Notes under the pieces: generated by a model
Database searches by the model: none
What the model was told of the DNA's origin: nothing
What the model saw: the letters and a program-made list of their open reading frames with translations, nothing else
Position numbers and translations under genes: made by a program
Part shown: in pieces, positions 3,042 to 60,722 of the stretch
Position numbering within the stretch: position 1 is the stretch's first letter
Layout: each line of letters begins with the position of its first letter
Assembly: GCF_003609775.1 (NCBI RefSeq)
Contig: NZ_AP018050.1
Span: forward strand, 310,001-374,000
Origin: Prevotella melaninogenica
GTDB lineage: Bacteria > Bacteroidota > Bacteroidia > Bacteroidales > Bacteroidaceae
Direction: 5' to 3'
Length of the DNA: 64,000 nucleotides

Positions 3042-3151
3042 TAACAAAAATCAACGTGTTAAGCCTTAGCACCATTGGTGCTTACCATCAACACGACATG
3101 TGCTAAGCATCAACTCGCCCAGTAAAGATGACGTAAGTGAACAAATAAACA
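3042..3151. repeat. Five-unit 22-bp phased repeat block, family II copy 1
   Basis: Units begin at about 3042, 3064, 3086, 3108 and 3130. The first three are clear (each carries a TTAGCAC/GTGCTTA-like or AACACnnnATGTGCTAAG core with internal dyad symmetry); the last two are degenerate. Related blocks lie at 47053-47162 and 56876-56985. It is non-coding in all frames. Confidence 0.6.
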
Positions 3152-3514
3152 GGTGAAAAAGTCAACGAGTTATGTGTTTTTCAGTTTCGCTTAGATGTTT
3201 ATTGTGCAAAAAAACGAGAAAAAGTGTTATCATCTTGTGATTTATTTCTATCTTTGCAACTCCTTTCTAAGACAGCTAACTATCAACAGACTATCTGGTA
3301 TGAGAATCGTCCTACAAAACAATCGATCAGACAAGGTAGTGCGAAAGAAGAAAACCTTTAGTCTTCTATGTGTTTACCCATAAACTCTATGCGGTTATCC
3401 ATTAATAAGAAATACTATGTGTGAAGTAGGACTTACCTACTCTTTTTACACCATAGAAGCGTCTAAACAAGGTTAAAAGAAAATATTAAACGATAAAATT
3501 ATAATCAACAAGCA
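3152..3514. other. Intergenic, no gene seen
   Basis: AT-rich DNA between the family II repeat and the subtilase gene. A short frame at 3195-3383 has no recognisable features and I do not consider it a gene. A TATCTTTG at 3249-3256 could be a -7 promoter box, far upstream of the subtilase start. Confidence 0.5.
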
Positions 3515-5890
3515 ATGAGAAAATTTCTACTCACAGTATGTTGTTTGGGTATGTTTGGTTCTGCTTTTGGTCAATCAAAGCTTGACTTGAAGAGCCTGAT
3601 GGAGTTAAATAAGCTCCGCAACACATCAATCCCTACTTACAACGCCCGTACTCGTTCGTTAGAACAACCAAAGACTATTCCTACAAACATTATGGCAATG
3701 GTTGAACTGAAAGATCAGAACAACCGAGCTGATTTAGAAGCACAAGGTATAAAAGTGCTGCGTGTACGTGATAACATCGCTATTGCTTTGATTCCCTTAG
3801 CCGATGTTGAGCGTATTGCTAATTTGAAATGCGTTCGCCGAATGCAACTCCCTCGCCGTTTGTTCCAGAAAATGAACCTTGTACGCAAGGAAGTTGGCGT
3901 TGACAAGATTCACCAAGGCACAGACCTTCCACAAGCTTACACAGGTAAGGGAGTGGTAACTGCTGTTGTTGACGGTGGTGTTGACCCTAACCACATCAAT
4001 TTCTTTAAAGAAGATGGTACCAGCCGCTTTGCTTATGTGGGTAAGATAGTGGAAAATAAGCGGAATAAAAATGGCTATCAGTACGACAAGTATTATCCTC
4101 GTACCGTGCTTGACACCATGACACAGGCTAATAATGCGCACGCTCTTGAAACTTTCAAGACCGATAATGATGAGATTGTACATGGCACGCATACCTTAGG
4201 TATCATGGCTGGTGGATATAAAGGAAACATCACTTACGGAGAGGCTGTTGGAACGTATCAAGCAAAGTCTGTAACAGGAGTAAATCCTTTCTATGGTTCT
4301 GCAACAGAGTCAGAACTAATTGCTTCTTGTGGAGATCTTAATGACTTATATATTGCACTCGGTATTGATGATGCGATTGAATATGCTAAGACCTCTGGAC
4401 CAAGCCCTAAACCCTGCGTTATCAACCTCTCATTAGGTAGTAATATTGGTGTACACGACTCTACAAGTGTGATGAACAAATATCTTTCAAAGCAGGGAAA
4501 GGAAGCCATTATCTGTGTTGCTGCAGGAAACGAAGGCGAAAAGCCAATCGCATTGAAGAAGACTTTCGCTACTGCCGGAGAAACAGTTAAGACCTTCCTT
4601 ACACCGATGGATATTAGTCCTGTAGATGAAGGAGGAACCACTTACTATAACTTCCGCAACGGACAGATAGCAGCCTATAGCAAAGACTCTACTGTCTTTG
4701 AGTTTTATATCAATGTTGTCGACACAAAGCAGGACAATCGTACCATCCTAAGCATTGCTGTTCCAAACAACTTGAATGGAAGAGATGTGACTTACGCATC
4801 TAAAGCTAAGTATGTAAACAACAGCAACGATGTCAACAAAGACTTTGCGAAAGCTTTCGAAGGTTACGTCTCAGTCTCTTCTGCTATTGATTCTGAAACT
4901 AACCGTTACTATGCCTTTGCGGAGGTCATGACTGGCGACAATCAGACAACCAACCAAGATGAAGACTACAAGTTGACCTTAGAAATCAAAAGTAAGAAAG
5001 CAGGACAGAGAGTTGAGGTTTATACCGACGACCAGAATATCTACTTCGATGACAATGACGAGGATGGCTTTGTGAAAGGTTCAGCCAATGGTTCTATCAG
5101 CGACATGGCGTGTGCAACAAACATTATTACCGTTGGTAGCTATAATGTTCGTAATCACATAGCATCACTTGATGGTAGTATCTATAACTTTAACGGTCTT
5201 AGTTCTGGAGAAAGTTTCCCAATAGGTGAGATTTCAAGCTTCTCTTCTTTCGGTACACTCGGTGATGGTAGAAACTTGCCACATGTATGTGCACCGGGCG
5301 CAGCCGTCATCTCTTCTGTTAATACATACGCTGTCAAGAATAAGGACTTGGACTATGAAGACGACCAATTACAAGGTAAGTTGAAGAAAGGTAAGGATAC
5401 TTACTACTGGCATCAGTCAATAGGAACGTCAATGGCTACGCCTGTCGTGGCTGGTGGCGTCGCTCTCTGGCTTGAAGCTAACCCAAGCTTGACCATCAAG
5501 GACGTACTGCGTATTATCCAGCAGACTGCTAAAAAGGACGATTTTGTCAAAACAACGGGCGATCCAGTACAATGGGGTGCAGGCAAGTTTGATGCATACG
5601 AAGGTCTAAAGCAGGTGCTGCTTGAAAAGCAGACCAACGGAATCAATGGTGTCAGAACTACTGAAAGCAAGGATGCTTTTATCATTACGAAGGCTGGCGA
5701 TCGCACGTTCAACCTCTTCCTTGCTGGTGCTAAGCAGCTCAACGTACGTATCTTCACACCGAGCGGACAGCTCGTTCATTCGCTTTCCGCACAAGGCAAT
5801 GAATACAATCTGAATGCTTCTTCATGGAATAAGGGCATTTATCTTATTCAAGTGAATGGTAACAAGGCACAGCGTATTATCATCTATTAA
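3515..5890 (+). CDS. Secreted S8 (subtilisin-like) serine peptidase with T9SS sorting domain
   Basis: A 791-residue protein. Residues 1-20 form a signal peptide ending in FGQ. The S8 catalytic triad is complete: Asp153 in VVDGGVDPNH, His223 in HGTHTLG and Ser639 in GTSMATPVVAGG. A long insertion (about residues 350-500, beta-rich) lies between His and Ser, as in other large Bacteroidota subtilases. The last 70 residues (VRIFTPSGQLVHSL, KGIYLIQVNGNKAQRIIIY) are a type A C-terminal sorting domain, so export is expected through Sec and then the type IX system to the surface. The likely role is extracellular protein degradation for nutrition or host interaction; the substrate is unknown. It is monocistronic, with a hairpin terminator on both sides. 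Confidence 0.95.
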   Translation: MRKFLLTVCCLGMFGSAFGQSKLDLKSLMELNKLRNTSIPTYNARTRSLEQPKTIPTNIMAMVELKDQNNRADLEAQGIKVLRVRDNIAIALIPLADVERIANLKCVRRMQLPRRLFQKMNLVRKEVGVDKIHQGTDLPQAYTGKGVVTAVVDGGVDPNHINFFKEDGTSRFAYVGKIVENKRNKNGYQYDKYYPRTVLDTMTQANNAHALETFKTDNDEIVHGTHTLGIMAGGYKGNITYGEAVGTYQAKSVTGVNPFYGSATESELIASCGDLNDLYIALGIDDAIEYAKTSGPSPKPCVINLSLGSNIGVHDSTSVMNKYLSKQGKEAIICVAAGNEGEKPIALKKTFATAGETVKTFLTPMDISPVDEGGTTYYNFRNGQIAAYSKDSTVFEFYINVVDTKQDNRTILSIAVPNNLNGRDVTYASKAKYVNNSNDVNKDFAKAFEGYVSVSSAIDSETNRYYAFAEVMTGDNQTTNQDEDYKLTLEIKSKKAGQRVEVYTDDQNIYFDDNDEDGFVKGSANGSISDMACATNIITVGSYNVRNHIASLDGSIYNFNGLSSGESFPIGEISSFSSFGTLGDGRNLPHVCAPGAAVISSVNTYAVKNKDLDYEDDQLQGKLKKGKDTYYWHQSIGTSMATPVVAGGVALWLEANPSLTIKDVLRIIQQTAKKDDFVKTTGDPVQWGAGKFDAYEGLKQVLLEKQTNGINGVRTTESKDAFIITKAGDRTFNLFLAGAKQLNVRIFTPSGQLVHSLSAQGNEYNLNASSWNKGIYLIQVNGNKAQRIIIY

Positions 5891-5923
5891 AAGCGCATCA
5901 TCATACATTAAAAAGGAAAGAAC

Positions 5924-5979
5924 CTTTCAATGATTGGGAAGAAAATGGGAACTTAAAGTCTCATCCCAATCATTGAAAG
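5924..5979 (+). terminator. Long hairpin after the subtilase gene
   Basis: Perfect 16-bp arms at 5924-5939 and 5964-5979 (CTTTCAATGATTGGGA and its complement) with a 24-base loop. The tail is A-rich rather than T-rich on this strand, so it may be an mRNA-stabilising hairpin or a weak terminator. Confidence 0.55.
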
Positions 5980-6167
5980 AATCAAACAAAAAAGAATTGA
6001 AGACGCTCTTTTAAGAATACATCTAATATCAAGAGGAAAGCTCCTTATCTAAGCACCTTCATCATGAAGAAGACTGTTTATTACAAAGAAACAAGCTAAC
6101 TATATACAAAAACGGAAGTATGGTTAAAATTCGTCATAAAAGATTAGCTAATATGCCTTTTAATCCT

Positions 6168-6175
6168 TACCTTTG
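6168..6175 (+). promoter_or_regulatory. -7 box (TACCTTTG) of transporter gene
   Basis: Matches the Bacteroidota TAnnTTTG -7 element, 19 bases before the ATG at 6195. Confidence 0.7.
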
Positions 6176-6194
6176 CACAGAATAAATAATACTT

Positions 6195-8165: not shown

Positions 8166-8275
8166 AAAAGGTGCTTACTTGGACTTCAAAAGGGCGTTAG
8201 TTAGACCTCAAAAGGGCATCTTTTGCAAGCCAAAAAGGCGTTAATTAAAAGCCAATTAACGCTCTTCTTATTTTC
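8166..8275 (+). repeat. Five-unit 22-bp phased repeat block, family I copy A
   Basis: Five contiguous 22-base units start at 8166, 8188, 8210, 8232 and 8254. Units begin AAAAGGTGCTTAC, AAAAGGGCGTTAG, AAAAGGGCATCTT, AAAAAGGCGTTAA and AATTAACGC. The last two units can fold into a hairpin (GGCGTTAATT with AATTAACGC). It lies 270 bases after the transporter gene, same strand. Confidence 0.9.
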
Positions 8276-8330: not shown

Positions 8331-8446
8331 GTTACTTATGTTGTTATTTACTTTGTTACTATGTCCTTAAATACTATGTTACCATATCTTCACTTATATT
8401 GTTACCATGTCTTTAAATACTATGTCTTTTGTTCATTATGTCTACC
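8331..8446. repeat. Five-unit 23-bp repeat, possible family V
   Basis: GTTAC or GTC motifs recur at 8331, 8355, 8378, 8401 and 8424, giving five units of 23-24 bases. Units two and four are close copies (GTTACTATGTCCTTAAATAC versus GTTACCATGTCTTTAAATAC). The block follows family I copy A by 55 bases. AT-richness makes the outer units less certain. Confidence 0.5.
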
Positions 8447-8452
8447 ACTGAA

Positions 8453-8495
8453 GTAATCATAATTATGAATTATGAATTGTGAATTATGAATTATA
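8453..8495. repeat. AATTATGAATT intergenic repeat
   Basis: Tandem (A)ATTATGAATT units preceded by TAATCATAATTATG. The same element recurs near 31460-31545, 35868-35905, 40946-40980 and, in part, 51340, always between genes. Confidence 0.7.
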
Positions 8496-14022: not shown

Positions 14023-15278
14023 CTACTTATCCTTGTTTTAATGGAAGATACGCTCAGAGGAGAATTTAGCAATAACACAAAAGGACTTTTGCAGTCTTAA
14101 TCCTTGTTTTAATGGAAGATACTCTCAGAGTGCACTTGACAACATATCTAAGTACTTTAAAGAGTCTTAATCCTTGTTCTAATGGAAGAGACTCTCAGAG
14201 AGCAAACGAAGACTACAAGAAACGAATTAAACAAGCAGTCTTAATCCTTGTTCTAATGGAAGATACTCTCAGAGTTGAATACCAACAATGAAGATTGACG
14301 AATATAAGGTCTTAATCCTTGTTCTAATGGAAGATACCCTCAGAGATAAAAAAAGCTATGTTAGAAATAATTATAATAAGTCTTAATCCTTGTTCTAATG
14401 GAAGATACCCTCAGAGATAAAAAAAGCTATGTTAGAAATAATTATAATAAGTCTTAATCCTTGTTCTAATGGAAGATACCCTCAGAGGTTTTGATAATAT
14501 TGATGCTAACTGGTTGATTATGGGTCTTAATCCTTGTTCTAATGGAAGATACTCTCAGAGTAGTAACTCCTTACCAGTCTACAAGAAGAGTGAGTCTTAA
14601 TCCTTGTTTTAATGGAAGATACCCTCAGAGTCAGTGCGTGATAATGTGTGTGTTGTTCACATTGCGTCTTAATCCTTGTTTTAATGGAAGATACCCTCAG
14701 AGAAGGTGATATGTGGGAGGAAGAAGCAAAAGAGTCTTAATCCTTGTTTTAATGGAAGATACTCTCAGAGCTCCACTGTTAAAACTTCAATAAGATTTAG
14801 AATGGCACTGTCTTAATCCTTGTTTTAATGGAAGATACTCTCAGAGTTTTATATTTATTAGTTTTATGTGGTTAGTATATAGTCTTAATCCTTGTTTTAA
14901 TGGAAGATACTCTCAGAGATGTACCGATGAACATCAAAAAAAAACTCGGGCAGTCTTAATCCTTGTTTTAATGGAAGATACTCTCAGAGAAAGCAAAGGA
15001 CGGTGATGATGACTCTATCAATGGGTCTTAATCCTTGTTTTAATGGAAGATACTCTCAGAGCTCTCGAGAAGGGTGATGTATTCATGGTATTTGGTGTCT
15101 TAATCCTTGTTTTAATGGAAGATACTCTCAGAGGGAGATATTGATGATATTTATGCAGGTTGTAGTGTGTCTTAATCCTTGTTTTAATGGAAGATACTCT
15201 CAGAGTGCGACGTAAAAAGGCTATACGGCGAAAAGATGTACGTCTTAATCCTTGTTTTAATGGAAGATACTCTCAGAG
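14023..15278 (-). CRISPR. CRISPR array, 18 repeats and 17 spacers, no cas genes in window
   Basis: Repeats are 37 bases, beginning GTCTTAATCCTTGTTTTAAT (positions 1-20) and ending ATGGAAGATACTCTCAGAG on the plus strand. Starts: 14023 (degenerate), 14094, 14164, 14238, 14309, 14380, 14451, 14524, 14594, 14666, 14734, 14810, 14882, 14953, 15025, 15097, 15169, 15242. Spacers are 31-39 bases. Repeats 3-8 carry the variant TTGTTCTAATGG; 5-7, 9 and 10 carry ACCCTCAGAG; the rightmost eight are identical. Spacers 14346-14379 and 14417-14450 are identical. The degenerate repeat and variants on the left, uniform repeats on the right, a promoter at 15384-15414 and a minus-strand repeat end ATTAAGAC (like the ATTGAAAC tag of type I/III repeats) all point to a leader on the right and minus-strand transcription. 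The type cannot be fixed without cas genes; I favour type III or I-B. Confidence 0.97.
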
Positions 15279-17405: not shown

Positions 17406-20400
17406 TTATTCAGTATCTTTTTTTCTTTCTTTCAACACATTCTTACTCATCATCTTCATCAACTCATTTTCGTCCATTTCATTTATCTGATTGAGGAATT
17501 CTTCTGAGAGTGATGGAAAATCTTTCTTCTCAAACTTCACACGTTCTCTTGACGGTGCTGGTGGTTCATTCCTCAATGGCTGTATCCTGTCTATTTCCTT
17601 ACCCACCCTATAAGCAGCAGCTCCTGTTAGTCGTACTATTAACGCATGAGGATGATTACCATATTGCTTCTCTCCTACCAGACTCCAGAACAACACCAAA
17701 CCTTTTTCCTCCATATATTCATCCAGTTTGCTACGTAATACCAACAATGCACGCAGAGGATCACCTGGTATATTTCGATTAATTGCTACAATTTCGTCGT
17801 GTTCATTGCGAATAATACCGCGTTCAGCTGTATGCCATCCGAACATCTCCATCATTTCCTTGCATGGCATATAAGCAGTACTCATAAATTGACATTCATC
17901 ATCAATACCCTTATAATCCTCTTGTAATTGAGCTTCGTAAGCCAATTTCATTTCTCCGCCACCTTCGTCAAAGATATCGTCGTCCTCGCCTCCTAATTGC
18001 AAATAACTATCTGCCCATGGATATTCATTCCATCTGTAATCAATACTACCATTATACTCTGGCATCCAACGTCCATAGAAATTCTTGTCTGAAGCCCAGT
18101 TTCTCAGCTGCTCAAAATTATTTTTATTTGCAAACGCTCCATTGTATAACACAAATTGCTCACGTTTATCATCACCCTTCTCTTCCTTAATGGTACTATA
18201 GGCTTGTAAAACAATCCACTCATTTCCATCGTGATCTTTCAAGCTAAAATACAATGGAGGCATCTGGCGCTCATCTTGCAACCATTCTTTGGCAATTTGC
18301 TTCATTGTCGATGCTGGTCGTAACACATCAAACAGTTGGTGTGACTTCTCCAAAGTCAAATCCTTATCCGTGAGCGTAGGATCGTAGTAATCATGCTCTC
18401 TGGCATACCAAGGGTAGTTCTTTTCTGCAAATCGTTCTCGTGCAGACCAGAGGTTAATCCTTATCTGACAAGTATCGCACAGATAGGCATAGACCCTATA
18501 CATACCTATCCACTGGTATTTCTTTCCTATACGTTCTACAGAGTTCTCTGCGCGAGCCTGATATGGCACATCTGAATCATATTTACCCAACTCATCATTC
18601 CATCCAAACTTATGCTTTATCAAATAAGCTATTGCATACTCAATTTTCCTCAAGCTCACGCCTTTTCCGTCGCGGAAGAAGATTCTGGATACGTTGTTAC
18701 TGTTTGTTCCGATAATGTAACGGCTGAAGTCCCAATGAAACAGCGAACGGGTAATCTGCTTTCCACCATCTGTTTCACCAAAATATCCATCAGCCTCGTA
18801 GTCATCTTCGGGCATCTCTGCAAAAATATCTTCAGTTACATTATAAGGCGGTTGAGCTTTACTCCATGCATCTATTGTAGGATCTTGATGATTAGCCAAC
18901 TCTAGAATCTTAAGCGTCCAATGCCTAACCATCAAGTCTTGTGGCACTTTTCCTGCTTCTCCGTAATGGTAAGATAAAATCTTTTCTGCAATAACTCTGC
19001 TGAAATCAGCTTTGTCAACAATTACACCATAAACTGCAGCATACAATCCCCATAAAATATATGGGTCATCAACTGCATGGAACTTATCAATAACATATTC
19101 CGTTTGGCAAGGATTTTCTGACAGAAGAATCTTCACCTTTCTCATTACATACGCCCTCAGATAGGGATAACTGGCACTCAACATCCATATCTCTACCGTC
19201 AGCAAGGTCTTCACTTCATGATCAAGAGTCGGTTCAAGAGCTTTTATCAAATCCATGTATATGCCCCCATCAAAGAGTCCATTCACTTTAGTAGTCCATT
19301 TCAGGTCACGTTCTGCCATTTTCATGGACATCAGTTGTCTATGCACTTCATCCATCAACCCTTGGCTATAAAGTTCCATGTTTCTCAAAATCAATTCTGG
19401 ATCTATATAATCAGGATTCTGCCGGAGTATATCATCTATAATATCCGCAGTTAGTGTATTCTTGTCATCACGTAGATTCCTCATTGACATACTACTCAGC
19501 AAAAGGCTTGTCAACTTGCCATTCATGAACTCTCGTTTCTTCCAAAAGACAGCAGATGGGTTCCACACACTGAGAAAGGCCTTGATAAAATTATACTTTT
19601 TCTGCCAATTGAGTCTAACATGATAGGCAGCATCCATTTGGTCATACAATCTTTCCAACGTCCTGAATCGATCACCATCATCACACTTACGATTCAATAA
19701 TCGTTCTGCTTTCAGATAGTCACCCATGGAGTCAAACTCAAAATCTACAAAATCACCTTCAGAGGTAGTATATTCGCGAAGGAGGTTCGCATCCAGGCAA
19801 TTCTTCAGCAGGCTCTTGCTCCATGTCCTGAACGGGCACACCCTATATGAACGTTTATAAGCTTGCTGTCTTGGTATGTCCTCACACTGCCATTGTTCAA
19901 GCGATCTCTCTGCTACCCATAGTATATATTTTGTTGTTACATGCTGTTTCACATCTTCATCCACACCGTCAGTTATTTCGTAGTTACGCTTTTCTAAATA
20001 ACGCTTATAGATAGGAAGCCTTAATACCTTCTCACGTTCTTCTTCTGTCTGACTATAGTAAGTTTCACAAAACATTCTCAGAAATAACGGATTGGTGAAT
20101 TCCGTTATTTCTGTATATGGCACTTCATCCGTCATAATCTCGTATGCCTCGAAATACTTCCTGATAGCCTTTTTTCGGTTCTTAAAACCTTCTACCCTCA
20201 AAGAATGCCAATCGTTTATCAAGATATCGTTGAGTTGGTCTTCTTTCGAAAGCGTTCTAAGCGATACTATCATCTTCAGATGACTGTAACGGGAAATCTT
20301 GTTCTTTAGAATTGGTAATTGCTCCATCCAAAAGTGAGTACCCGCTCCTTCATTCAAAGCATCAATAATGATAGTTGCAGTTTTCCCTTCTTCACGTGCA

Positions 20401-21632
20401 AGTTTATCATCCAGTTCTTTAAGCGAATCACTACTTTTCCACCCCATAACACGTGCTATTGTTTTCTCCGGATCTTCCAAGGGTGAAAATTCCGAACCCA
20501 ATAGCATATATATCTGTTGGCGATTACTTATTTCAAGAGCCTCCCTATAAAGCAAATGAGACTTTCCACACCCAGCAGTACCACTAACGTGCATGAATTG
20601 TCTTTCTTCATATAACGTCTTATTATGAAGCCATGTATATATTTTGTTATAAATGGCTTGCAACTCCTTCCTGTGGTCAGCATGGAGTTTCTTTTCGCTA
20701 CCCCTCAAACAAAATAGCTTCTCCATTCCGCCTTTGACCCCATCTGTGATAATTCCATCTTGTAAATAGTTTACAAGTTGAATAATACTATCAATATATG
20801 TTAGTCTGTCACCAGCCATTTTATCATGCCAAGACTTATACTCATCATGTATTTCAAGCCGTTCTTCTTCAAAGCCATAGCCACAAAATCGCTGTATAGT
20901 CTTTTCTACTTCCTCATTTTCTACATGAACCTTGTCATTATAACGTGTTTTGAGCATGTCGGCAGTGTGCTCTCGTATGTGGTTATAACTCCTTCTCAGA
21001 CCATACGGGGTGTTATCATATAAATCGTCATTCTCTTCAATTCTGATTTCTGTTTCCTTTTCAACCAGTTCTTTAATCGCTGCGATGGAAAGATAGCCTA
21101 ACGAAGAGTAGAGTTGGTCTGTTTCTATACCTACAACCATTCCGAAATCATTTATCACTGGCGACCCTGAAAAACCTTCATAGCTATTGAAGCCAAAACT
21201 ATCAGTTCTTACAACCATTCGGTCAAAGCCCCCTTTAAGGTCTGCTTTCTCCCGACTATTTTTCACAGTCACTCCGAAATAATCCACGCCGTTTCCCAGT
21301 TCTCTCGGATATCCGACTATCAACAAATCAATTCTCTCTTTAAACTTACTGGCTAATAATGGCAGTACATACTCATTAGGGCATATATAGTCAACACTTT
21401 CCAATATAGCGACATCAGGGTCGGCTTGATGTACAAGTACGCGGCAAACCTTGTGCTCATCTTCCACAACCACTGCAACCATTGTCTCTTTGTCTAAAAT
21501 ATACTCAGCTACAACATGGCCTGCTGTTAATAGGTATGTTGGCGTTACAAAGAAAGCGGTGCCACTTACATAGCCCCCACAAAATACGGGAACTACACCC
21601 TTATTTCCGTAATTGTCAATATTCAAATTCAT
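17406..21632 (-). CDS. Trypsin-like protease fused to STAND (NACHT-like) NTPase, Avs1-like
   Basis: A 1408-residue protein. Residues 1-195 are a trypsin-fold protease with an intact triad: His39 (LTAGHV), Asp73 (DPDVAIL) and Ser155 (GFSGSPV). A linker (200-330) is helical. The NTPase module has Walker A GTAGCGKS at 351-358 and Walker B IIIDALNEG at 421-429 (Asp424), then a sensor-like IVSLRT near 450; DALNE is typical of STAND NTPases of the AVAST/Avs group. The remaining 850 residues are a large helical region with no simple TPR pattern, the usual place for ligand recognition. The Met start overlaps the upstream MBL gene by 17 bases. In known type 1 AVAST systems an MBL protein, a trypsin-like protease and a STAND protein are separate; here protease and sensor are one chain. 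The likely role is phage-triggered oligomerisation and proteolysis; function is inferred, domains are seen. Confidence 0.88.
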   Translation of the reverse strand: MNLNIDNYGNKGVVPVFCGGYVSGTAFFVTPTYLLTAGHVVAEYILDKETMVAVVVEDEHKVCRVLVHQADPDVAILESVDYICPNEYVLPLLASKFKERIDLLIVGYPRELGNGVDYFGVTVKNSREKADLKGGFDRMVVRTDSFGFNSYEGFSGSPVINDFGMVVGIETDQLYSSLGYLSIAAIKELVEKETEIRIEENDDLYDNTPYGLRRSYNHIREHTADMLKTRYNDKVHVENEEVEKTIQRFCGYGFEEERLEIHDEYKSWHDKMAGDRLTYIDSIIQLVNYLQDGIITDGVKGGMEKLFCLRGSEKKLHADHRKELQAIYNKIYTWLHNKTLYEERQFMHVSGTAGCGKSHLLYREALEISNRQQIYMLLGSEFSPLEDPEKTIARVMGWKSSDSLKELDDKLAREEGKTATIIIDALNEGAGTHFWMEQLPILKNKISRYSHLKMIVSLRTLSKEDQLNDILINDWHSLRVEGFKNRKKAIRKYFEAYEIMTDEVPYTEITEFTNPLFLRMFCETYYSQTEEEREKVLRLPIYKRYLEKRNYEITDGVDEDVKQHVTTKYILWVAERSLEQWQCEDIPRQQAYKRSYRVCPFRTWSKSLLKNCLDANLLREYTTSEGDFVDFEFDSMGDYLKAERLLNRKCDDGDRFRTLERLYDQMDAAYHVRLNWQKKYNFIKAFLSVWNPSAVFWKKREFMNGKLTSLLLSSMSMRNLRDDKNTLTADIIDDILRQNPDYIDPELILRNMELYSQGLMDEVHRQLMSMKMAERDLKWTTKVNGLFDGGIYMDLIKALEPTLDHEVKTLLTVEIWMLSASYPYLRAYVMRKVKILLSENPCQTEYVIDKFHAVDDPYILWGLYAAVYGVIVDKADFSRVIAEKILSYHYGEAGKVPQDLMVRHWTLKILELANHQDPTIDAWSKAQPPYNVTEDIFAEMPEDDYEADGYFGETDGGKQITRSLFHWDFSRYIIGTNSNNVSRIFFRDGKGVSLRKIEYAIAYLIKHKFGWNDELGKYDSDVPYQARAENSVERIGKKYQWIGMYRVYAYLCDTCQIRINLWSARERFAEKNYPWYAREHDYYDPTLTDKDLTLEKSHQLFDVLRPASTMKQIAKEWLQDERQMPPLYFSLKDHDGNEWIVLQAYSTIKEEKGDDKREQFVLYNGAFANKNNFEQLRNWASDKNFYGRWMPEYNGSIDYRWNEYPWADSYLQLGGEDDDIFDEGGGEMKLAYEAQLQEDYKGIDDECQFMSTAYMPCKEMMEMFGWHTAERGIIRNEHDEIVAINRNIPGDPLRALLVLRSKLDEYMEEKGLVLFWSLVGEKQYGNHPHALIVRLTGAAAYRVGKEIDRIQPLRNEPPAPSRERVKFEKKDFPSLSEEFLNQINEMDENELMKMMSKNVLKERKKDTE

Positions 21633-25112: not shown

Positions 25113-25222
25113 ATAAATCAATAGATGCTCTATTAGCTTCCAATTAACGCCCAATTAGCTTGCAAAAGATGCCCTTTAAGACCCTTACTAACGCCCTTTT
25201 GAAGTCTTATTAAGCACCTTTT
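25113..25222 (-). repeat. Five-unit 22-bp phased repeat block, family I copy B
   Basis: On the minus strand five 22-base units run from 25222 to 25113, starting AAAAGGTGCTTAATAAG, AAAAGGGCGTTAGTAAG, TAAAGGGCATCTTTTGC, AATTGGGCGTTAATTGG and AATAGAGCATCTATTG. It lies 212 bases downstream of the SusD gene and is co-oriented with it. Confidence 0.9.
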
Positions 25223-30574: not shown

Positions 30575-30684
30575 AAAAATCAATAGATGCTTAATTGGCT
30601 TCGAAAAGACGCCTAATTGACTTGTAAAAGATGCCCTTTAAGACCCTTACTAACGCCCTTTTGAAGTCCAAGTAAGCACATTTT
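30575..30684 (-). repeat. Five-unit 22-bp phased repeat block, family I copy C
   Basis: Minus-strand units from 30684 down to 30575 start AAAATGTGCTTACTTGG, AAAAGGGCGTTAGTAAG, TAAAGGGCATCTTTTAC, AATTAGGCGTCTTTTCG and AATTAAGCATCTATTG. It lies 165 bases downstream of the zinc-ribbon gene on the same strand and about 340 bases upstream of susC. Confidence 0.9.
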
Positions 30685-33733: not shown

Positions 33734-34708
33734 ATGTACACTGCCGATGAAATTCTGAGTAAAGTAAACGAGTATATAAACAATCTCAGTTATGACCGTA
33801 AGCCACAAAGCTTGTACGAACCGATAAAATACGTCCTATCATTGGGTGGTAAGCGCATCCGTCCTACGCTGATGCTTCTTTCTTACAATCTTTTTAAGGA
33901 CGATCCAGAAACGATTCTCTCACCAGCTTGTGCCCTTGAGACCTATCATAACTATACACTCTTGCACGATGACTTGATGGATGATGCGCCACTTCGCCGT
34001 GGACAGCAGACCGTTCACGTACGTTGGGATGCCAATACGGCTATCCTTTCGGGCGACTCTATGCTTGTGTTGGCCTTTGAAAGAATGGCACAGTGCGACA
34101 GCAAACACCTCAGTGAGGTGCTTCATCTCTTCACCATTACGGCACTTGAGATTGGTGAGGGTCAGCAGTACGACATGGAGTTTGAGAATCGTAATGACGT
34201 AAAGGAGGAAGAATACATTGAGATGATTCGTTTGAAGACCAGTGTTCTGTTGGCTTGTGCGATGAAGATTGGTGCTATCCTTGCTGATGCACCAGCTGAA
34301 GACGTAGAGAATCTCTATAAGTTTGGCGAGCAGATTGGTCTGGCTTTCCAGCTGCAAGACGATTACCTCGATGTCTATGGCGACCCAAAGGTATTCGGAA
34401 AGAAGGTGGGTGGCGACATTATCTGCAACAAGAAGACCTACATGCTCATCAATGCTTTCAACAAAGCAAACGCTCGTCAGCGTAAAGAATTGGAGAAATG
34501 GATTGGCTCTGAGAACTTTAATCACGAGGAGAAGGTGGCTGCTGTCACTAATCTTTATAATAGCATTGGCGTTGACAAGATGGCTATGGAGCGCATCAAC
34601 TACTATTTTGATGAGGCAAACAAGTATCTCGCTGCAATAAACCTACCTGATGAACGGAAGGCAGAACTGTTAGCTTATGCGCAGAGGATGCTGCATAGGA
34701 AGTGGTGA
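33734..34708 (+). CDS. Polyprenyl (trans-isoprenyl) diphosphate synthase
   Basis: A 324-residue protein with both aspartate-rich motifs of trans-prenyltransferases: the first as Asp79-Asp80-Leu-Met-Asp83-Asp84 (LLHDDLMDDAPLRRG) and the second as Asp209-Asp210-Tyr-Leu-Asp213 (QLQDDYLDVYGD). GGKRIRP near the N-terminus binds pyrophosphate. It chains isopentenyl diphosphate onto an allylic primer to make the long prenyl tail of menaquinone or a C15-C20 precursor; chain length cannot be read reliably. Follows tonB by 65 bases on the same strand, possibly cotranscribed. Confidence 0.93.
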   Translation: MYTADEILSKVNEYINNLSYDRKPQSLYEPIKYVLSLGGKRIRPTLMLLSYNLFKDDPETILSPACALETYHNYTLLHDDLMDDAPLRRGQQTVHVRWDANTAILSGDSMLVLAFERMAQCDSKHLSEVLHLFTITALEIGEGQQYDMEFENRNDVKEEEYIEMIRLKTSVLLACAMKIGAILADAPAEDVENLYKFGEQIGLAFQLQDDYLDVYGDPKVFGKKVGGDIICNKKTYMLINAFNKANARQRKELEKWIGSENFNHEEKVAAVTNLYNSIGVDKMAMERINYYFDEANKYLAAINLPDERKAELLAYAQRMLHRKW

Positions 34709-34800
34709 AGCCTCCCCCGACCCCTCCGAAAGGAGGGGAGCCCAAATAGGATAAAGCCCCACCCCGACCCTCCCCGAACGGGGAGGGAGGCAAATAGGAT
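34709..34800. repeat. GC-rich CCCTCCCC palindromic repeat, copy 1
   Basis: Two tandem units, each with a G-rich/C-rich palindrome (CCCTCCGAAAGGAGGGGAG and CCCTCCCCGAACGGGGAGGG) preceded by CCCCGACC. Stands out from the AT-rich surroundings. Related copy at 46889-46972. Confidence 0.8.
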
Positions 34801-34816
34801 AAGGTTAGGAAAATCA

Positions 34817-34903
34817 TCAACACCCAACATTCAACACCCAACACCCAATAAACACTTCATCAACACCCAATATTCAACACCCAACACTCATCACCCAACA
34901 CCT
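34817..34903 (+). repeat. CAACACCCAACA repeat abutting a start codon, copy 1
   Basis: Tandem degenerate copies of CAACACCCAACATT ending directly at the ATG of the TatD gene. The segment has almost no G. Related tracts precede the starts at 47239 and 48567. Confidence 0.75.
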
Positions 34904-35732: not shown

Positions 35733-35905
35733 TGTTGGGTGTTGATGATTTGTTAAGTTGTGGGTGATAATGAGTTTACAAACTATGGGTAGGGTGTTTG
35801 GTGTTGAATGATGAGTGATAATGAATTGACAAGCTGTGTGTAGCAATAAACATATCAAGCAATGGTAATCATAATTATGAATTATGAATTGTGAATTATG
35901 AATTA
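35733..35905. repeat. Mixed intergenic repeats (GTGTTGGGTG tract and AATTATGAATT tract)
   Basis: Begins with the complement of the CAACACCCAACA repeat (GATGTTGGGTGTTGATG) and ends with GGTAATCATAATTATG and tandem AATTATGAATT. The latter runs into the leader of cmk. Confidence 0.65.
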
Positions 35906-36649: not shown

Positions 36650-36715
36650 TAGGTCCTTTCGTTAAAAGCGGTGTGACAAACGTATACGCAATTAACGAAA
36701 GGACCTATCTTTTTT
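36650..36715 (+). terminator. Strong terminator after cmk
   Basis: Perfect 16-bp arms at 36650-36665 and 36692-36707 (TAGGTCCTTTCGTTAA and complement) followed by TCTTTTTTATT. Confidence 0.9.
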
Positions 36716-36930
36716 ATTCTTCAAAGCAGTCCTAAACACTATCAACAAGCTATCTCGCCTCATCCTTTCACACTGAAAACGACACATTCATAACATCGTT
36801 AAAACGACAACAAGGCTTTGAAAAATCATTACATAATTGCGATTAAAACCACGTATAAAAAGGCGAAAAACACCCGGAAAAACTAAGTCTGCAATCATCA
36901 GTAAATCAATTAGTTACCAAGTTACACAAG

Positions 36931-37040
36931 AAAAGGTGCTTAATAAGACTTCAAAAGGGCGTTAGTAAGGGTCTTAAAGGGCATCTTTTGCAAGTCAATT
37001 GGGCGTCTTTTAGAAGCTAAAAGAGCATGTATTGATTTCG
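36931..37040 (+). repeat. Five-unit 22-bp phased repeat block, family I copy D
   Basis: Units start at 36931, 36953, 36975, 36997 and 37019: AAAAGGTGCTTAATAAG, AAAAGGGCGTTAGTAAG, TAAAGGGCATCTTTTGC, AATTGGGCGTCTTTTAG, AAAAGAGCATGTATTG. It lies 305 bases after cmk, same strand. Confidence 0.92.
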
Positions 37041-37211
37041 AAGTGATAGAAAATAATTTACAAATACACGTTAAAAAGCAAGTCGTCATGATAGTAGCAA
37101 GCGAGAAAATGAACTAACGCAAGAAGCAATAAATCTATGATTTATGAATTAAGAAATACTAAAATCAACAGAATTATACAGTCTTCGGACCGCTATCTCA
37201 ACTTAAAATGT

Positions 37212-39716: not shown

Positions 39717-39826
39717 TATAAAATTATCAAGTGATTTCTCTTAGTCTTTATATGAGAGATGTTAAATAGGACAGCAGCTCATTTTACAAACTATCAACAC
39801 CCAACATTTAACACCCAACACCCACG

Positions 39827-40867: not shown

Positions 40868-40980
40868 TCAACAAGTTGACAAGTGAACAAGTTGACAAGT
40901 AACCGAGTTAACAAGTTATTTGTATCAATAAACACTGTTAACAATGGTAATCATAATTATGAATTATGAATTATGAATTA
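40868..40980. repeat. AAGTTGACAAGT and AATTATGAATT repeats
   Basis: Three 16-base units (AAGTTGACAAGTGAAC-like) at 40873-40920 followed by GGTAATCATAATTATG and AATTATGAATT units. The same order of partial motifs occurs near 51370-51450 and 35820-35905. Confidence 0.65.
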
Positions 40981-44191: not shown

Positions 44192-44301
44192 CAAATCCAA
44201 CTCATGCTCCTTTGCCTTTCAATTAACGCCCTTTTGGCTTGCAAAAGATGCCCTTTAAGCCTCTTACTAACGCCCTTTTGAACCCTTACTAAGCACCTTT
44301 T
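44192..44301 (-). repeat. Five-unit 22-bp phased repeat block, family I copy E
   Basis: Minus-strand units from 44301 to 44192 start AAAAGGTGCTTAGTAAG, AAAAGGGCGTTAGTAAG, TAAAGGGCATCTTTTGC, AAAAGGGCGTTAATTG and AAAGGAGCATGAG. It lies about 220 bases downstream of the initiator tRNA, same strand. Confidence 0.92.
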
Positions 44302-46888: not shown

Positions 46889-46972
46889 AGCCCCACCCCG
46901 ACCCACACGAAAGGAAAGGTTAGAGAGAAAGCCCCACCCCAACCCTCCCCGAAAGGGGAGGGAGGCAAAATT
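46889..46972. repeat. GC-rich CCCTCCCC palindromic repeat, copy 2
   Basis: Two tandem units starting AAAGCCCCACCCCGACC and AAAGCCCCACCCCAACC, the second containing CCCTCCCCGAAAGGGGAGGG. Same family as 34709-34800. Confidence 0.8.
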
Positions 46973-47052
46973 GCTAAAAGAAGATGAAAGAGAGGATGTA
47001 AAAGGGGGATAAAATTAGATAATAAGGAGGACAAAATTAGATAAAAGAAGGC

Positions 47053-47162
47053 GTTGATAAAAATGGTACTGACACTCAACACAAGATGTGCTAACGCTTA
47101 ACACATAATGTGCGAAGGCTTAACACAAAATGTGCGAAGGCTCAAAATAAGATTTGATAAGT
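47053..47162. repeat. Five-unit 22-bp phased repeat block, family II copy 2
   Basis: Units start at 47053, 47075, 47097, 47119 and 47141. The three central units are clear: CTCAACACAAGATGTGC, CTTAACACATAATGTGCG and CTTAACACAAAATGTGCG, each 22 bases. The outer two are degenerate. Non-coding. Confidence 0.8.
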
Positions 47163-47198: not shown

Positions 47199-47238
47199 TC
47201 AACACTCAACATTTAACACCCAACATCCAACACAACAC
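47199..47238 (+). repeat. CAACACCCAACA repeat abutting a start codon, copy 2
   Basis: CATCAACACTCAACATTTAA and following CAACACCCAACATCC run directly into the ATG at 47239, with no G-rich ribosome site. Confidence 0.7.
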
Positions 47239-48522
47239 ATGACAGAAAATAAAAAAGGACTCCTCGCGTTGAGTCCACTACTTGTATTCATCGTTCTATA
47301 TCTGGTCACCTCAATCGTATCGGGCGACTTCTATAAGGTACCGATTACCGTGGCATTCATGGCATCAAGTATCTTTGCTATCGCCATATCAGGAGGCTAT
47401 CCACTCGCAAAACGAATTCAGATATATAGCAAGGGAGCCAGCACAGAAAACATGATGATGATGCTGTGGATATTCGTACTTGCTGGAGCATTCGCTAACT
47501 CGGCTAAGGACATGGGCAGTATTGATGCTACGGTCAACCTAACTCTCTCCATCCTACCAGATAATATGCTGCTACCGGGACTCTTCCTCGCTGCTTGTTT
47601 CATTTCAATCAGTATTGGAACGAGCGTCGGAACCATCGTTGCTCTCACCCCTATCGCAGCAGGTATTGCCACTTCTACGGGGAGTTCGCTTCCTTTCGTC
47701 GTCGCAGTCGTCGTCGGTGGTTCGTTCTTTGGAGATAACCTTTCGTTCATCAGCGACACAACCGTTGTAGCAACGAGAACACAAGAGTGTAAGATGGCAG
47801 ATAAGTTTAGGGTAAACTTCTTCATCGTTGCCCCTGCAGCAGTTCTGATTCTGCTTATCTATATCTTCATGGGAAGAGACATACACACAACCGGACAGAC
47901 CGCAATCGTTGACATCCACAGAGTCATTCCTTACATGGCAGTACTGATTTGCGCGCTCTTTGGCATGAACGTCATGGCTGTATTGACCATTGGAATCGTC
48001 CTCACAGGTGCTATTGGCATCATTGATGGTAGCTACGATGTCTATGGTTGGTTTGGAAGTATGGGCGCAGGTATCACTGGTATGGGCGAACTGATTATCA
48101 TCACGATGATGGCAGGTGGTATGTTGGAGATTATCCGTGAGAATGGTGGTATCGACTATCTCATTAAGATGATTACCCGACACGTCAACAGTAAGCGCGG
48201 AGCAGAGCTAACAATAGCCTTCCTCGTCAGTTTGGTGGATATCTGTACAGCCAATAATACGGTGGCAATCCTCACCGTGGGCGGTATTGCAAAGCAGATT
48301 GGCGACCGATACGGTGTAGACAAACGTAAGGCAGCCAGCATCCTCGACACCTTCTCATGCTGTGCACAAGGTCTGATTCCATACGGTGCACAGATATTGA
48401 TGGCAGCAGGATTGGCAAAGGTAAACCCTGTGAGTATCATCCCATTCCTCTACTATCCAATCCTTTTGGGCGTCACAGCCTTCCTCGCTATCCTCTTCCA
48501 TTATCCACGCCGCTACTCATAA
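47239..48522 (+). CDS. NhaC family Na+/H+ antiporter
   Basis: A 427-residue membrane protein of about 11-12 helices. Family features include the polar stretch IGTSVGTIVALTPIAAGIA, GGSFFGDNLSFISDTTVVATRTQ (the charged FGDNxSPISDTT-type signature of NhaC antiporters), LVDICTANNTVAILTVGGIAKQI and CCAQGLIPYGAQILMAAG. It would exchange cytoplasmic Na+ (or an organic cation/acid in related members) for protons. It starts directly after a CA-rich repeat. The next gene follows by 44 bases, so the two may form an operon. Confidence 0.92.
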   Translation: MTENKKGLLALSPLLVFIVLYLVTSIVSGDFYKVPITVAFMASSIFAIAISGGYPLAKRIQIYSKGASTENMMMMLWIFVLAGAFANSAKDMGSIDATVNLTLSILPDNMLLPGLFLAACFISISIGTSVGTIVALTPIAAGIATSTGSSLPFVVAVVVGGSFFGDNLSFISDTTVVATRTQECKMADKFRVNFFIVAPAAVLILLIYIFMGRDIHTTGQTAIVDIHRVIPYMAVLICALFGMNVMAVLTIGIVLTGAIGIIDGSYDVYGWFGSMGAGITGMGELIIITMMAGGMLEIIRENGGIDYLIKMITRHVNSKRGAELTIAFLVSLVDICTANNTVAILTVGGIAKQIGDRYGVDKRKAASILDTFSCCAQGLIPYGAQILMAAGLAKVNPVSIIPFLYYPILLGVTAFLAILFHYPRRYS

Positions 48523-48527: not shown

Positions 48528-48566
48528 TCATCAACTCCCAACATTCATCACCTAACACCCAACACC
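48528..48566 (+). repeat. CAACACCCAACA repeat abutting a start codon, copy 3
   Basis: CATCAACTCCCAACATTCAT and then CACCTAACACCCAACACC end at the ATG at 48567. Confidence 0.7.
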
Positions 48567-51713: not shown

Positions 51714-51823
51714 AAAAGGTGCTTACTTGGACTTCAAAAGGGCGTTAGTAAGAGGCTTAAAGGGCATCTTTTGCAAGCCAAAAGGGCGTTAATTGAAAGC
51801 CAATTAACGCCCTTTTTATTTTC
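51714..51823 (+). repeat. Five-unit 22-bp phased repeat block, family I copy F
   Basis: Units start at 51714, 51736, 51758, 51780 and 51802: AAAAGGTGCTTACTTGG, AAAAGGGCGTTAGTAAG, TAAAGGGCATCTTTTGC, AAAAGGGCGTTAATTG and AATTAACGCCCTTTTT. The last two form a 14-bp hairpin plus T-run, like a terminator. It lies 510 bases after the GH20 gene, same strand. Confidence 0.92.
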
Positions 51824-56875: not shown

Positions 56876-56985
56876 ATCATAGATTGATACGGAGGTTCCG
56901 CACGTTTGGTGCTAAGCGTCCGCACATTTGGTGTTAAGCCTTAGCACGCCTGTAAGAGAGTGTTGAGAGGTGAGAGGATAGGTAT
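56876..56985. repeat. Five-unit 22-bp phased repeat block, family II copy 3
   Basis: Two good units at 56898-56919 and 56920-56941 (CCGCACGTTTGGTGCTAAG and CCGCACATTTGGTGTTAAG), a third at 56942 (TAGCACGCCTG) and degenerate flanks. It is the reverse orientation of copy 2 at 47053. Confidence 0.6.
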
Positions 56986-57040
56986 TAGCCTCCCTTTTCC
57001 TATGCGTTTATACTATTAAACGTCTTTATAGGGAAGCTGC

Positions 57041-57868: not shown

Positions 57869-57879
57869 TTCTGCAAATC

Positions 57880-58851: not shown

Positions 58852-58870
58852 TCCTCTTGTCTTATAGTTC

Positions 58871-58979
58871 GTTTACTTTCTTGCAAAGGTATTTTCATTT
58901 CTCTGCAAAGCGGTATTTACTTCCCTGCAAAGATATGTCACCTCACAACAAGGTAGTGTTTACTTTCTTGCAAAGGTAC
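58871..58979 (-). repeat. Five-unit 22-bp phased repeat block, family IV, overlapping ribF promoter
   Basis: Units start at 58871, 58893, 58915, 58937 (21 bases) and 58958. Each carries TTTCnnTGCAAAG or a variant; the first and last share GTTTACTTTCTTGCAAAGGT. As minus strand the motif reads TACCTTTG or TATCTTTG, the -7 box, at 58891-58884, 58934-58927 region and 58978-58971. Confidence 0.8.
58884..58891 (-). promoter_or_regulatory. -7 box (TACCTTTG on minus) of ribF
   Basis: The array copy nearest the gene, 32 bases before the ATG at 58851; the other array units supply upstream duplicates. Confidence 0.65.
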
Positions 58980-59073
58980 TCCAAATCACCCACAAACCCA
59001 CGCTCGTGCAAACAAAATGTGTTAAAACATTAAATTTCCTTACTATCCTTTCTCTTTTCCCAATTTATTTCAT

Positions 59074-59081
59074 TATCTTTG
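59074..59081 (+). promoter_or_regulatory. -7 box (TATCTTTG) of tRNA-CAU gene
   Basis: TAnnTTTG match 21 bases before the tRNA 5' end. Confidence 0.7.
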
Positions 59082-59102
59082 CACCCGAATTTATAAAATT
59101 CA

Positions 59103-59176
59103 GGACTTGTAGCTCAGTTGGTTAGAGCAACAGACTCATAATCTGGAGGTCCCTGGTTCAAGCCCAGGCTGGTCCA
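59103..59176 (+). tRNA. tRNA with CAU anticodon, elongator Met most likely
   Basis: Begins GGACTTGTAGCTCAG and ends GCTGGTCCA. The anticodon loop is CTCATAA. G1-C72 pairs, so it is not an initiator. An Ile-CAU (lysidine) identity cannot be wholly excluded. The acceptor stem contains one T-T mismatch (6-67). The 3' end is the likely attachment site of the island that follows. Confidence 0.92.
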
Positions 59177-59234
59177 CAAATAGGTTTCAAAAGGATGTCA
59201 AACAATACGTCATTTTAGCCTTCAAAACAAGGAT

Positions 59235-59270
59235 AATCGCTGTAAAATCAAGGTTTTACAGCGATTTTTT
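59235..59270 (+). terminator. Strong terminator after tRNA-CAU
   Basis: Perfect 13-bp arms AATCGCTGTAAAA and TTTTACAGCGATT (59235-59247, 59254-59266), loop TCAAGG, then TTTTG. Confidence 0.92.
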
Positions 59271-59484
59271 GTTTTTATCCATATCCGTTTGACTGCCAAA
59301 CTATACCTTTTGATAGTCATCATTCGGTCATTTTCTGCTACAGAAATTGCTACACAAAAGCAGAGTCTCAAAAAATGTAGCAATGAATGGAAAATGACTA
59401 TTAAATTGACGGCATGCAAAACTTTCATTTTCAAGAACTTATGTCGAGCTTTGTAGCCAAAAAGCTACACTAAAATGATGCGTT
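59271..59484. other. Possible integrase arm-site region
   Basis: Non-coding. The motif GCTACA or its complement TGTAGC recurs at about 59336, 59348, 59376, 59452 and 59464, the sort of short repeats bound by tyrosine recombinases beside an attachment site. Confidence 0.4.
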
Positions 59485-59661
59485 ATGAAAACGACTTTTA
59501 AAGTATCCTACTACCTACGTTCCAACTATGAGAACAAAGAAGGAAAATCACCTGTAATGCTCCGAATATATCTCGGTGGCGAAAAGGCAAATCTTGGATT
59601 CACTAAAAACACCGCTCTTAGGGTCTTAGGGAGGCTTTTTTTACACTCGAGGAGAGATTAA
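59485..59661 (+). pseudogene. N-terminal remnant of a tyrosine recombinase (integrase)
   Basis: The 58-residue frame starts MKTTFKVSYYLRSNYENKEG and continues KSPVMLRIYLGGEKANLGFT, the typical N-terminal arm-binding region of Bacteroidota phage/CTn integrases (normally about 400 residues). After codon 45 or so (KNTAL) similarity stops and the DNA is joined to the middle of a different gene. It lies 309 bases after a tRNA gene, the usual place for an integrase. No catalytic part remains in the window. Confidence 0.75.
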
Positions 59662-60412
59662 TAAAGCCATTGATTATGTGCAACTCTCGCTCGAAGATGC
59701 CAACTTTTACGATACACGTCAGCGCAAAATAGAAATTGGAAACATTCTTCCCATCATCGAACAAGAACACTTAACCATGCTACAACAGCAGCGAAACAGC
59801 ATGGCTATTGCCGCTTTCGTAGTCATTTGCCTTCTTCTTGGCTTGATATATGGCGTTTGGGTGATTAAAAAGCAAATGAAAAAGCTGCACAAAGCGCAAG
59901 AAATTATCGAAGAATAGAATAACAGCTTGGTGCAATCGAATATGAAGTTGAACGAGGCAAACAAGATAAAAGACGAGTATATAGGGTGCTCTTTCTATCT
60001 AAATGCAGAGTATATTTCGAAACTCAAAAAGCTTTATAAAGGCATTGAGCGCAAGATTATAAGTAGACAATTCGACTCTTTGCGTCAAAGTGTAAACGAA
60101 TCGGTGCTCGAAAGCGAGCGAAAGAGTATGTATTCAGACTTCGATGAAACCTTTTTAAAGCTCTTTTCGCACTTTATAGACAGCTATGAGCAACTCTTTG
60201 AGCCCACAACTCAACGTCGTTCGATGCTGAATGAGCATCTAACAACAGAGATGCGCATCTTCGCTCTCATTCGTTTAGGCATACAAGACAGCAAAAGAAT
60301 TGCTAAATTCTTAAACTATTCGGTTCACACCATCAACACTTATAAAACCCGAGTGAAGAACAAGTTGTGGATAGAAAACGATTTGTTTGAACAGAAAATC
60401 ATGGAGATTTAG
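59630..60412 (+). pseudogene. Truncated and nonsense-interrupted DUF6377-like regulator
   Basis: The frame opens after a TAG at 59627 and reads YTRGEINKAIDYVQLSLEDA, the end of a TPR region. A membrane helix (AIAAFVVICLLLGLIYGVWVI) and coiled coil follow, then an in-frame TAG at 59915-59917. The same frame goes on to 60412 with a cytoplasmic domain and a C-terminal HTH (DSKRIAKFLNYSVHTINTYKTRVKNKLW). This is the layout of Bacteroidota TPR/DUF6377 transcriptional regulators; the N-terminal TPR part is missing, replaced by the integrase stub. Two lesions show it is dead. It precedes a TonB receptor that it may once have controlled. Confidence 0.8.
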
Positions 60413-60612
60413 TTCTCATTCCAAGCTTTTGCCGTTTCAATTCCTTGGAATAGCTTTCCTCCTTGCCACTATCTTATCCCTTTTTGCTTGCCTGTTGGTG
60501 TGCAAAAGGGTAGAGTGTGTGGCCTATTTTTAGAACTTTAAGTAGGTAAAAGCACCGTCCTCATCTATCTTTCTTTCCCCTTTTTCTCTTCAAGTCGTAG
60601 CCGTTCCATTGC
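60413..60612. other. Intergenic, island
   Basis: No gene or RNA recognised before the family III repeat. Text is T/C-rich on the plus strand. Confidence 0.4.
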
Positions 60613-60722
60613 AATAGATTGGGCATAGCAAAACAATTACATTGCTTTTGCCCTCCAAAAGCAATGCAATTGCACCCTAAAAGCATAACTATTGCAATGT
60701 AAAAGCAATGCTTTTATTTTTT
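60613..60722. repeat. Five-unit 22-bp phased repeat block, family III
   Basis: Units start at 60613, 60635, 60657, 60679 and 60701: AATAGATTGGGCATAGC, AATTACATTGCTTTTGC, AAAAGCAATGCAATTGC, AAAAGCATAACTATTGC and AAAAGCAATGCTTTT. Each begins AAAA, AATT or AATA as in family I, but the rest differs (GCAAT-based). Confidence 0.8.

Follow-up and report, generated by a model that had tools for sequence, protein, structure and literature searches.

Tandem arrays of 22-bp units in many sequence families in the intergenic DNA of Prevotella

The intergenic DNA of Prevotella melaninogenica contains short tandem arrays whose sequences differ from family to family and whose units share a length of 22 bp. 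We studied them starting from a stretch of 64,000 nucleotides (C2:310001-374000, on contig NZ_AP018050.1 of a genome of 3.09 Mb in 3 contigs), called the window in the following, for which a sequence-only reading had proposed that blocks of unrelated sequence share one layout of five 22-bp units. The repeat architecture is real and wider than that reading claimed. The period is kept far better than the sequence, as supported by 37 sequence clusters that have lag 22 in common, and one family, family I, is shown to be a non-coding mobile-type element, a BrickBuilt-like minisatellite within a miniature inverted-repeat transposable element (MITE), that moved as a block. We tentatively favour, at close to an even chance, a reading in which dispersed blocks carry 22-bp arrays, the family I element was moved in trans, probably by a transposase of the ISL3 type, and the spacing would be kept by phased sites for a dimeric protein.

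The 22-bp period and its sequence families

In the 25 intergenic regions of the window (12.8 kb, with an array resembling clustered regularly interspaced short palindromic repeats (CRISPR) masked), self-comparison at lag 22 gave 27 runs versus 0.37 in 60 shuffles, and lag 44 gave 10 versus 0.32, while each of the remaining lags from 10 to 59 reached 7 at most. Extended to 464 kb of the source genome, the count rose to 142 runs versus 4.3 in shuffled sequence (maximum 9 in 15 shuffles), with harmonics at lag 44 (70 runs) and lag 66 (30 runs), and 78 arrays were spread over 70 of 231 intergenic regions. Coding DNA of the same genome contained 8 lag-22 runs in 372 kb. Ten of the 20 stretches in this sample had been placed on family II matches, which inflates family II, and we recounted in the window plus 10 stretches picked regardless of repeats (264 kb, 123 intergenic regions). 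Here lag 22 gave 79 runs versus 2, 2, 2, 1, 0 and 0 in six shuffles, again with harmonics at lags 44 and 66. Counted as segments, 43 were found at lag 22, versus 2 at lag 21 and 3 at lag 23, with control lags averaging 2.85 (maximum 7), and 35 of the 123 regions held at least one lag-22 segment. The sharp excess over shuffled intergenic DNA that the sequence-only reading had named as its check is therefore present, and a chance origin is ruled out by the shuffles together with the neighbouring lags. Periods below 15 were excluded from the later array calling. The arrays and related features of the window are as follows.

8166..8260, minus strand: family I array core of 22-bp units (gapless profile match and block test)
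25128..25222, plus strand: family I array core (profile match and block test)
30590..30684, plus strand: family I array core, with related sequence at the orthologous place in the close species G088 (profile match and block test)
36931..37025, minus strand: family I array core within a decayed longer family I element (profile match and block test)
36652..36705, no strand: palindromic end (GGTCCTTTCGTTAA...TTAACGAAAGGACC) of the decayed family I element
37111-37127: possible other end of the decayed family I element, with 5 mismatches to the consensus end
44207..44301, plus strand: family I array core (profile match and block test)
51714..51808, minus strand: family I array core (profile match and block test)
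3068..3124, minus strand: family II array of about 3-4 clear units (lag and block test)
47061..47161, plus strand: family II array of about 4-5 units, with related arrays in the close species G124 and G088 (lag and block test)
46996..47052, plus strand: short lag-22 repeat that adjoins the family II array and forms a separate cluster (lag)
56882..56952, minus strand: family II array, with a G124 orthologue of equal length, 71 bp (lag and block test)
60609..60715, plus strand: family III array (second copy and block test)
58871..58980, plus strand: 'family IV', weak and single-copy (block test)

When matches at lags 22 and 44 were counted block by block, none of 2000 shuffles reached the values of the blocks at 3042, 47053, 56876, 60613 and 58871 or of the six family I blocks. 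This confirms the first four as the 22-bp arrays they had been taken for. Block 58871 holds up in part: its lag-22 signal beats all 2000 shuffles, but it is weak and single-copy, and its orthologues in two close species are non-periodic, with indels. The outer units ascribed to family II fare similarly, as the block tests are significant but the last unit of block 3042 resembles the others at 4 of 22 positions and the outer units of block 56876 at 9 and 7 of 22. A guessed version with units of 23-24 bases at 8331-8446 agrees with Tandem Repeats Finder (period 23, 3.3 copies), and the block test finds no lag-22 signal there (p=0.99).

Each of the closely examined genomes has several array families. 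Lag-22 segments of the source genome comprise 28 of family I, 27 of family II, 9 of family VI (two unconvincing) and 16 singletons. The 114 arrays of at least 60 bp from Prevotella loci fall into 37 clusters, 11 with at least two members and 26 with one, a count in which some clusters consist of the same locus fetched twice and overlapping loci are counted twice. Their lag-detected lengths are 3 units (46 arrays), 4 (48), 5 (14), 6 (4), 9 (1) and 16 (1), with the minimum set by the 60-bp cut-off and diverged outer units missed. A layout of about five units is typical of family I, whose core spans 95 columns, of family VI, whose 7 clear copies measure 88-100 bp, and of family III (107-bp match), but it is not fixed, three to four units being commonest among the 114. 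Nor need all families be unrelated, as had been supposed: an array of P. jejuni orthologous to window 51706 aligns by eye in register with family I, with its half-sites changed.

The proposal that length and phasing, not sequence, are selected or copied is borne out as far as 37 clusters share one period and family I blocks act as units. Family III, for its part, recurs once more over the length of a block (107 bp, 83% identical, at G000:C2:383958-384064). The further suggestion of a mechanism that makes 22-bp arrays does not follow, since selection for spacing would give the same picture.

The period is not confined to one species. Across 80 protein-picked loci, nearly all titled Prevotella or Prevotellaceae (1433 kb), we found 60 lag-22 segments, with control lags at a mean of 6.4 and a maximum of 15 (15 at lag 21, 9 at lag 23). 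A larger pooled set of 156 loci, some overlapping and thus counted twice and some placed on matches, gave 176 segments versus 18 for control lags, with 38 at lag 21; in a further set of 20 stretches, 7 were placed on known matches (L195, L196, L197, L202, L203, L211, L212). In 20 loci (328 kb) from eight further families of the order, there were 2 segments versus 2 in controls, and 60 kb from four more genera of the same family gave 3 versus 0.24 per control lag, too small a number to locate the origin. Rumen genomes use sets of units that are their own, among them TGCACAnTTTGTGCA, GTAGATGACGGYGGAAYGAC and AAAACGnTGTTTTC, all recurrent in G025. As separate observations, arrays of 21 bp occur in some rumen Prevotella loci (e.g. 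L060, L061, L062, L077, L082, L089), and 22-bp dyad arrays occur in two other genera of the family (L319:14153 and L322:475; AAACAATATTGTTT and TTTATCACRCGTGATAAA).

Family I as a mobile-type element

Homology among family I loci of the source genome, P. jejuni and P. multiformis extends well past the array. Four complete elements, three from P. multiformis and one from P. jejuni, measure 587, 588, 588 and 605 bp, with the array near the centre. Their inverted ends are alike at 20, 20, 21 and 19 of 23 positions, and the flanking 8-mers, read as target duplications, at 8, 8, 8 and 7 of 8 (chance of at least 7: 0.001). In the source genome, one end or both are decayed in the L024 copy and in the copy at 36652-37127 of the window, and no target duplication was found by eye at either. 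An alignment of 24 lag-picked copies has a core without gaps, and a gapless profile scan found 41 copies, both methods favouring indel-free copies and the scan being blind to copies with indels: 27 in the source genome (464 kb), 6 in P. multiformis, 5 in P. jejuni, 2 in P. veroralis, which are one locus, and 1 in P. denticola. Alignment A1 gives 40 of the 41, L036 being left out as the same locus as L212. Flanks of the copies seldom align beyond about 40-80 bp. A first look listed 172 candidates in G000, 188 in G088 and 195 in G124, of which 7 per genome were scored, and a scan of viral contigs with the family I end returned 19 stretches.

Which enzyme moved family I is suggested by its ends. 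They start with GGTTCTTC, as do the ends of the element to which the ISL3 transposase genes belong, and the source genome has 6 ISL3 transposase matches; inward of these bases the two kinds of end differ (GGTTCTTCAGGAATTTGG versus GGTTCTTCCGTTAAATG, 12 of 17). Both the 8-bp duplications and this type of end we take to be traits of the ISL3 family. From the ends and the duplications we infer transposition by an enzyme acting in trans, probably of the ISL3 type. In comparison with ISL3 elements and their MITEs, the central array is an added feature, and half of the 16 genomes searched are without ISL3. At L238:1-590, an ISL3 gene with an internal stop has in its vicinity a row of several 22-bp arrays that belong to different clusters.

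Retention in place, genomic context and folding

In the close species G124 and G088, which mostly match the source region at 85-92% and are about 90% identical to it, most arrays have kept their position. Where an array-bearing source region had an orthologous region, the array was also present in 3 of 3 (G124) and 6 of 7 (G088), the single G088 miss being a CAACACC microsatellite; for a further 21 (G124) and 17 (G088) array regions, the stretches retrieved contain no orthologue. Arrays have a mean identity of 0.78 in G124 and 0.81 in G088, versus 0.58 and 0.67 in the flanks of the same regions; the array at 51714..51808 is 0.90 identical to G124, the remaining intergenic region 0.45. In these two species, the orthologue comparison proposed as a check for gain and loss of whole blocks shows arrays that mostly stay where they are. 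Further away the picture changes. The window protein at 47239-48522 has matches in P. jejuni (93% identity), P. multiformis (89%), P. denticola (87%) and P. veroralis (84%), which puts the source genome near P. jejuni within Prevotella; upstream of its orthologue P. jejuni has a different 22-bp array, and P. multiformis and P. veroralis have no array at that region. The comparison of P. denticola L035:12335 with P. multiformis shows no clean insertion boundary, and no empty site is claimed. Rumen species are mostly unalignable, and at L064:8317 many other species have a short array-free gap.

These comparisons bear on the possibility that the arrays are functionless minisatellites made in place by slippage, 22 being a mutational preference of the lineage. 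We find this quite unlikely. At one array (L034:3886/L205:9759) P. multiformis and P. denticola do differ by a 22-column gap between flanks about 95% identical, genome G030 has one array of 346 bp with about 16 units, 26 of the 37 clusters have a single member, and arrays do not regularly exceed their flanks in conservation, all as slippage would have it. The many dispersed copies of families I and II, the single unit order of family I, its inverted ends and target duplications, and the retention of most arrays in close species speak against it.

Arrays are commonest between convergent genes, being present in 55 of 209 convergent gaps, 90 of 574 co-directional and 29 of 257 divergent ones (p=3e-5 for convergent versus divergent, p=0.001 versus co-directional), counts for which genes were called by ORF (open reading frame) length only, the species are related and some overlapping loci enter twice. 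By gap size, in the same order, the fractions are 12/80, 14/222 and 2/109 (150-350 bp), 20/50, 30/120 and 6/43 (350-600 bp), and 19/33, 35/92 and 16/46 (600-1200 bp). The trend is absent from some sets (P. jejuni 3/11, 8/27 and 2/8; P. multiformis 1/14, 2/20 and 1/10). Such a preference favours a rival in which transcribed units fold into strings of short RNA hairpins close to the ends of genes, with a role in terminating or stabilising transcripts like that suggested for repetitive extragenic palindromic sequences (REP) and bacterial interspersed mosaic elements (BIME); we regard it as possible but on the whole doubtful. Folding z-scores on the two strands are negative, as hairpins predict, for family I (-1.8/-2.5, 20 of 41 copies), family II (-2.7/-2.4, 20 of 27), family VI (-4.4/-4.1, 9) and 45 arrays of other species (-2.3/-2.2), but any periodic sequence with a dyad folds well by construction, and hairpins do not require an exact 22-nt period. 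Nor is the strand bias of family I in co-directional gaps significant (19 versus 13, p=0.38).

Covariation is similarly divided. One register of the family I half-sites covaries, with 35 double-change cells versus 18.9 in shuffled data and none of 500 shuffles reaching its percentage paired, its double-change cells or its score, but the other register is without covariation. The covariation consists mostly of two alternative words, and therefore of few independent events, and register A has 31 G-T and 24 A-C cells. In family II, whose arms read RCAC-n5-GTGY, the outermost pair varies independently (70 Watson-Crick pairs versus 70.9 expected in 115 13-mers picked for arm similarity; 26 A-C versus 19 G-T), which is as expected of a protein site and speaks against hairpins. 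The pair just inside the arms covaries (54 versus 37.7 expected), which fits hairpins. The pattern fits protein dyads and hairpins alike and does not choose between them.

Proposed phased sites, known systems and significance

In the reading we favour, each dispersed block has at its core 22-bp units in tandem, a length of roughly two turns of the DNA helix. A transposase supplied in trans, probably an ISL3-type enzyme, would have moved the array-bearing family I element of about 588 bp, and most copies would later have lost their ends with the array core kept. The least certain step is the last: each unit may be a site, often a dyad, for a dimeric DNA-binding protein, which would keep the spacing. 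Candidate binders are the transposase of the element or a nucleoid protein of the host, neighbouring sites then lying on the same face of the helix, and families with different letters could each serve a protein of their own or a single protein that evolves fast. Phased sites are our favoured, unproven function. The reading as a whole draws on the exact period, the block movement and gap-free core of family I, the retention of arrays and the dyads. Dyad symmetry exceeds phase-permuted controls (p<=0.05) in 35 of 90 arrays; a second dyad 11 bp away was dropped as independent evidence because any dyad in a 22-bp periodic sequence implies another at that distance. Block mobility is observed in one family, family I, and it is array function that we infer.

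Several points weigh against this reading. Significant dyads are absent from 55 of the 90 arrays, two turns of relaxed B-DNA take about 21 bp, no protein binding the arrays was identified, and the covariation in family I and inside the arms of family II suits hairpins. Mobile carriage concerns family I only: families II and VI are alignable within the array and little beyond, no element ends were recognised in family II, and family VI has inverted ends alike at 15-19 of 19 positions in 7 of 9 called copies with no target duplications seen. Family I sequence does come after an ISL3 gene at both L213 and L216, but in each case the end of the ISL3 element itself falls between gene and array, which are therefore neighbours or insertions; the element is rejected as the container of the array. 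ISL3 is likewise rejected as a universal mover, as a search of 16 genomes, of which two entries are the same genome, gave no ISL3 transposase match in 8, and each of these 8 has loci with arrays. In 2 of 3 (G124) and 2 of 7 (G088) regions array identity is not above that of the flanks, and regions without arrays reach 0.86 (n=3, G124) and 0.76 (n=10, G088). Because 4 of 10 region comparisons go the contrary way and array-free regions score so high, special conservation of the arrays is not established, and we do not claim it as proof of selection. Equal array lengths in the orthologue comparison were a selection criterion and form no independent test.

Modular repeats with variable unit number include the BOX elements of pneumococcus and the iterons of plasmids, the latter spaced about two helical turns apart. 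To our knowledge, neither occurs as many sequence families with one common period. The 22-bp arrays are not CRISPR, as their units abut and are related over their whole length instead of being set apart by unique spacers of similar length, and at gathering score Rfam recognises only two tRNAs in the window and no RNA family at the arrays.

Other repeats of the region deserve mention in their own right. The CRISPR-like array of the window (14094-15210, repeat GTCTTAATCCTTGTTCTAATGGAAGATACYCTCAGAG, period about 71 bp) has a large ORF nearby (17406-21632, 1408 aa, minus strand). A high count at lag 77 in the 464-kb sample (63 runs) derives almost wholly (59) from one locus, L030:12923-15579, where such repeats cover 2.6 kb of a single source-genome gap, perhaps a second CRISPR-like array. 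A palindromic repeat of type CCCCAACCCTCCCCGAAAGGGGAGGG (46928-46974, 34708-34802) recurs in the source genome, its relatives and G013 of another family. Microsatellites of 7 bp are AATTATG in gene gaps (8461-8494, 35873-35905, 40955-40980) and CAACACC/CAACATC adjoining ORF ends or starts (34817-34901, 39795-39824, 47199-47233, 48532-48566).

The closest known system is BrickBuilt of Porphyromonas gingivalis, described as a minisatellite of 23-nt units within an intergenic MITE that has a leader, a tail and inverted ends, one family of 19 elements with 1 to 22.8 units, IS5-like ends and 4-bp target duplications (PMC4596501). The claim of a new class of bacterial intergenic repeat was accordingly too strong. 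The likeness includes short tandem units that form the core of a MITE-like intergenic element bounded by inverted ends and target duplications, as in our four complete family I elements, loss of distal ends with repeats retained, changes of unit number (between strains in BrickBuilt) and predicted stem-loops. In contrast, the Prevotella arrays have 22-bp units and several families per genome across the genus, 27 copies of family I lie in 464 kb, family I has 8-bp duplications and ISL3-like first end bases, and family II is without recognised ends. We set the arrays apart from BrickBuilt proper by unit length, 22 bp versus 23 nt, the sequences being uncompared; the same source also mentions tandem repeats of 41, 23 and 22 nt in P. 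gingivalis W83 (PMC4596501).

REP/BIME are small palindromic intergenic repeats, sometimes tandem and in many copies (PMC3733652). The arrays are also short, often palindromic, intergenic and multi-copy, with families differing between species, as would suit spread by a REP-associated Y1 (RAYT) transposase, but their units stand in tandem at a fixed 22-bp spacing and PF01797 (Y1 transposase) has 0 matches in the source genome, the one genome this covers, a control search being positive in 5 of 14 genomes. This origin is extremely improbable. In a mainly open-access literature, seen largely as titles and abstract openings, we recognised no description of such arrays in Prevotella.

The arrays look like a genus-wide, many-family relative of BrickBuilt, which suggests a broader type of element with BrickBuilt as a single instance. 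A broader proposal, which we consider rather unlikely, is that spacing and not sequence is selected, the arrays serving as phased platforms, with two helical turns to a site, for one dimeric protein or several fast-diverging ones that would organise or insulate intergenic DNA across Prevotella and some related genera, with mobile elements as the vehicle. In the unchosen sample of the source genome, arrays touch 35 of 123 intergenic regions, and one period common to 37 clusters across the genus means that something reads or makes a fixed length.

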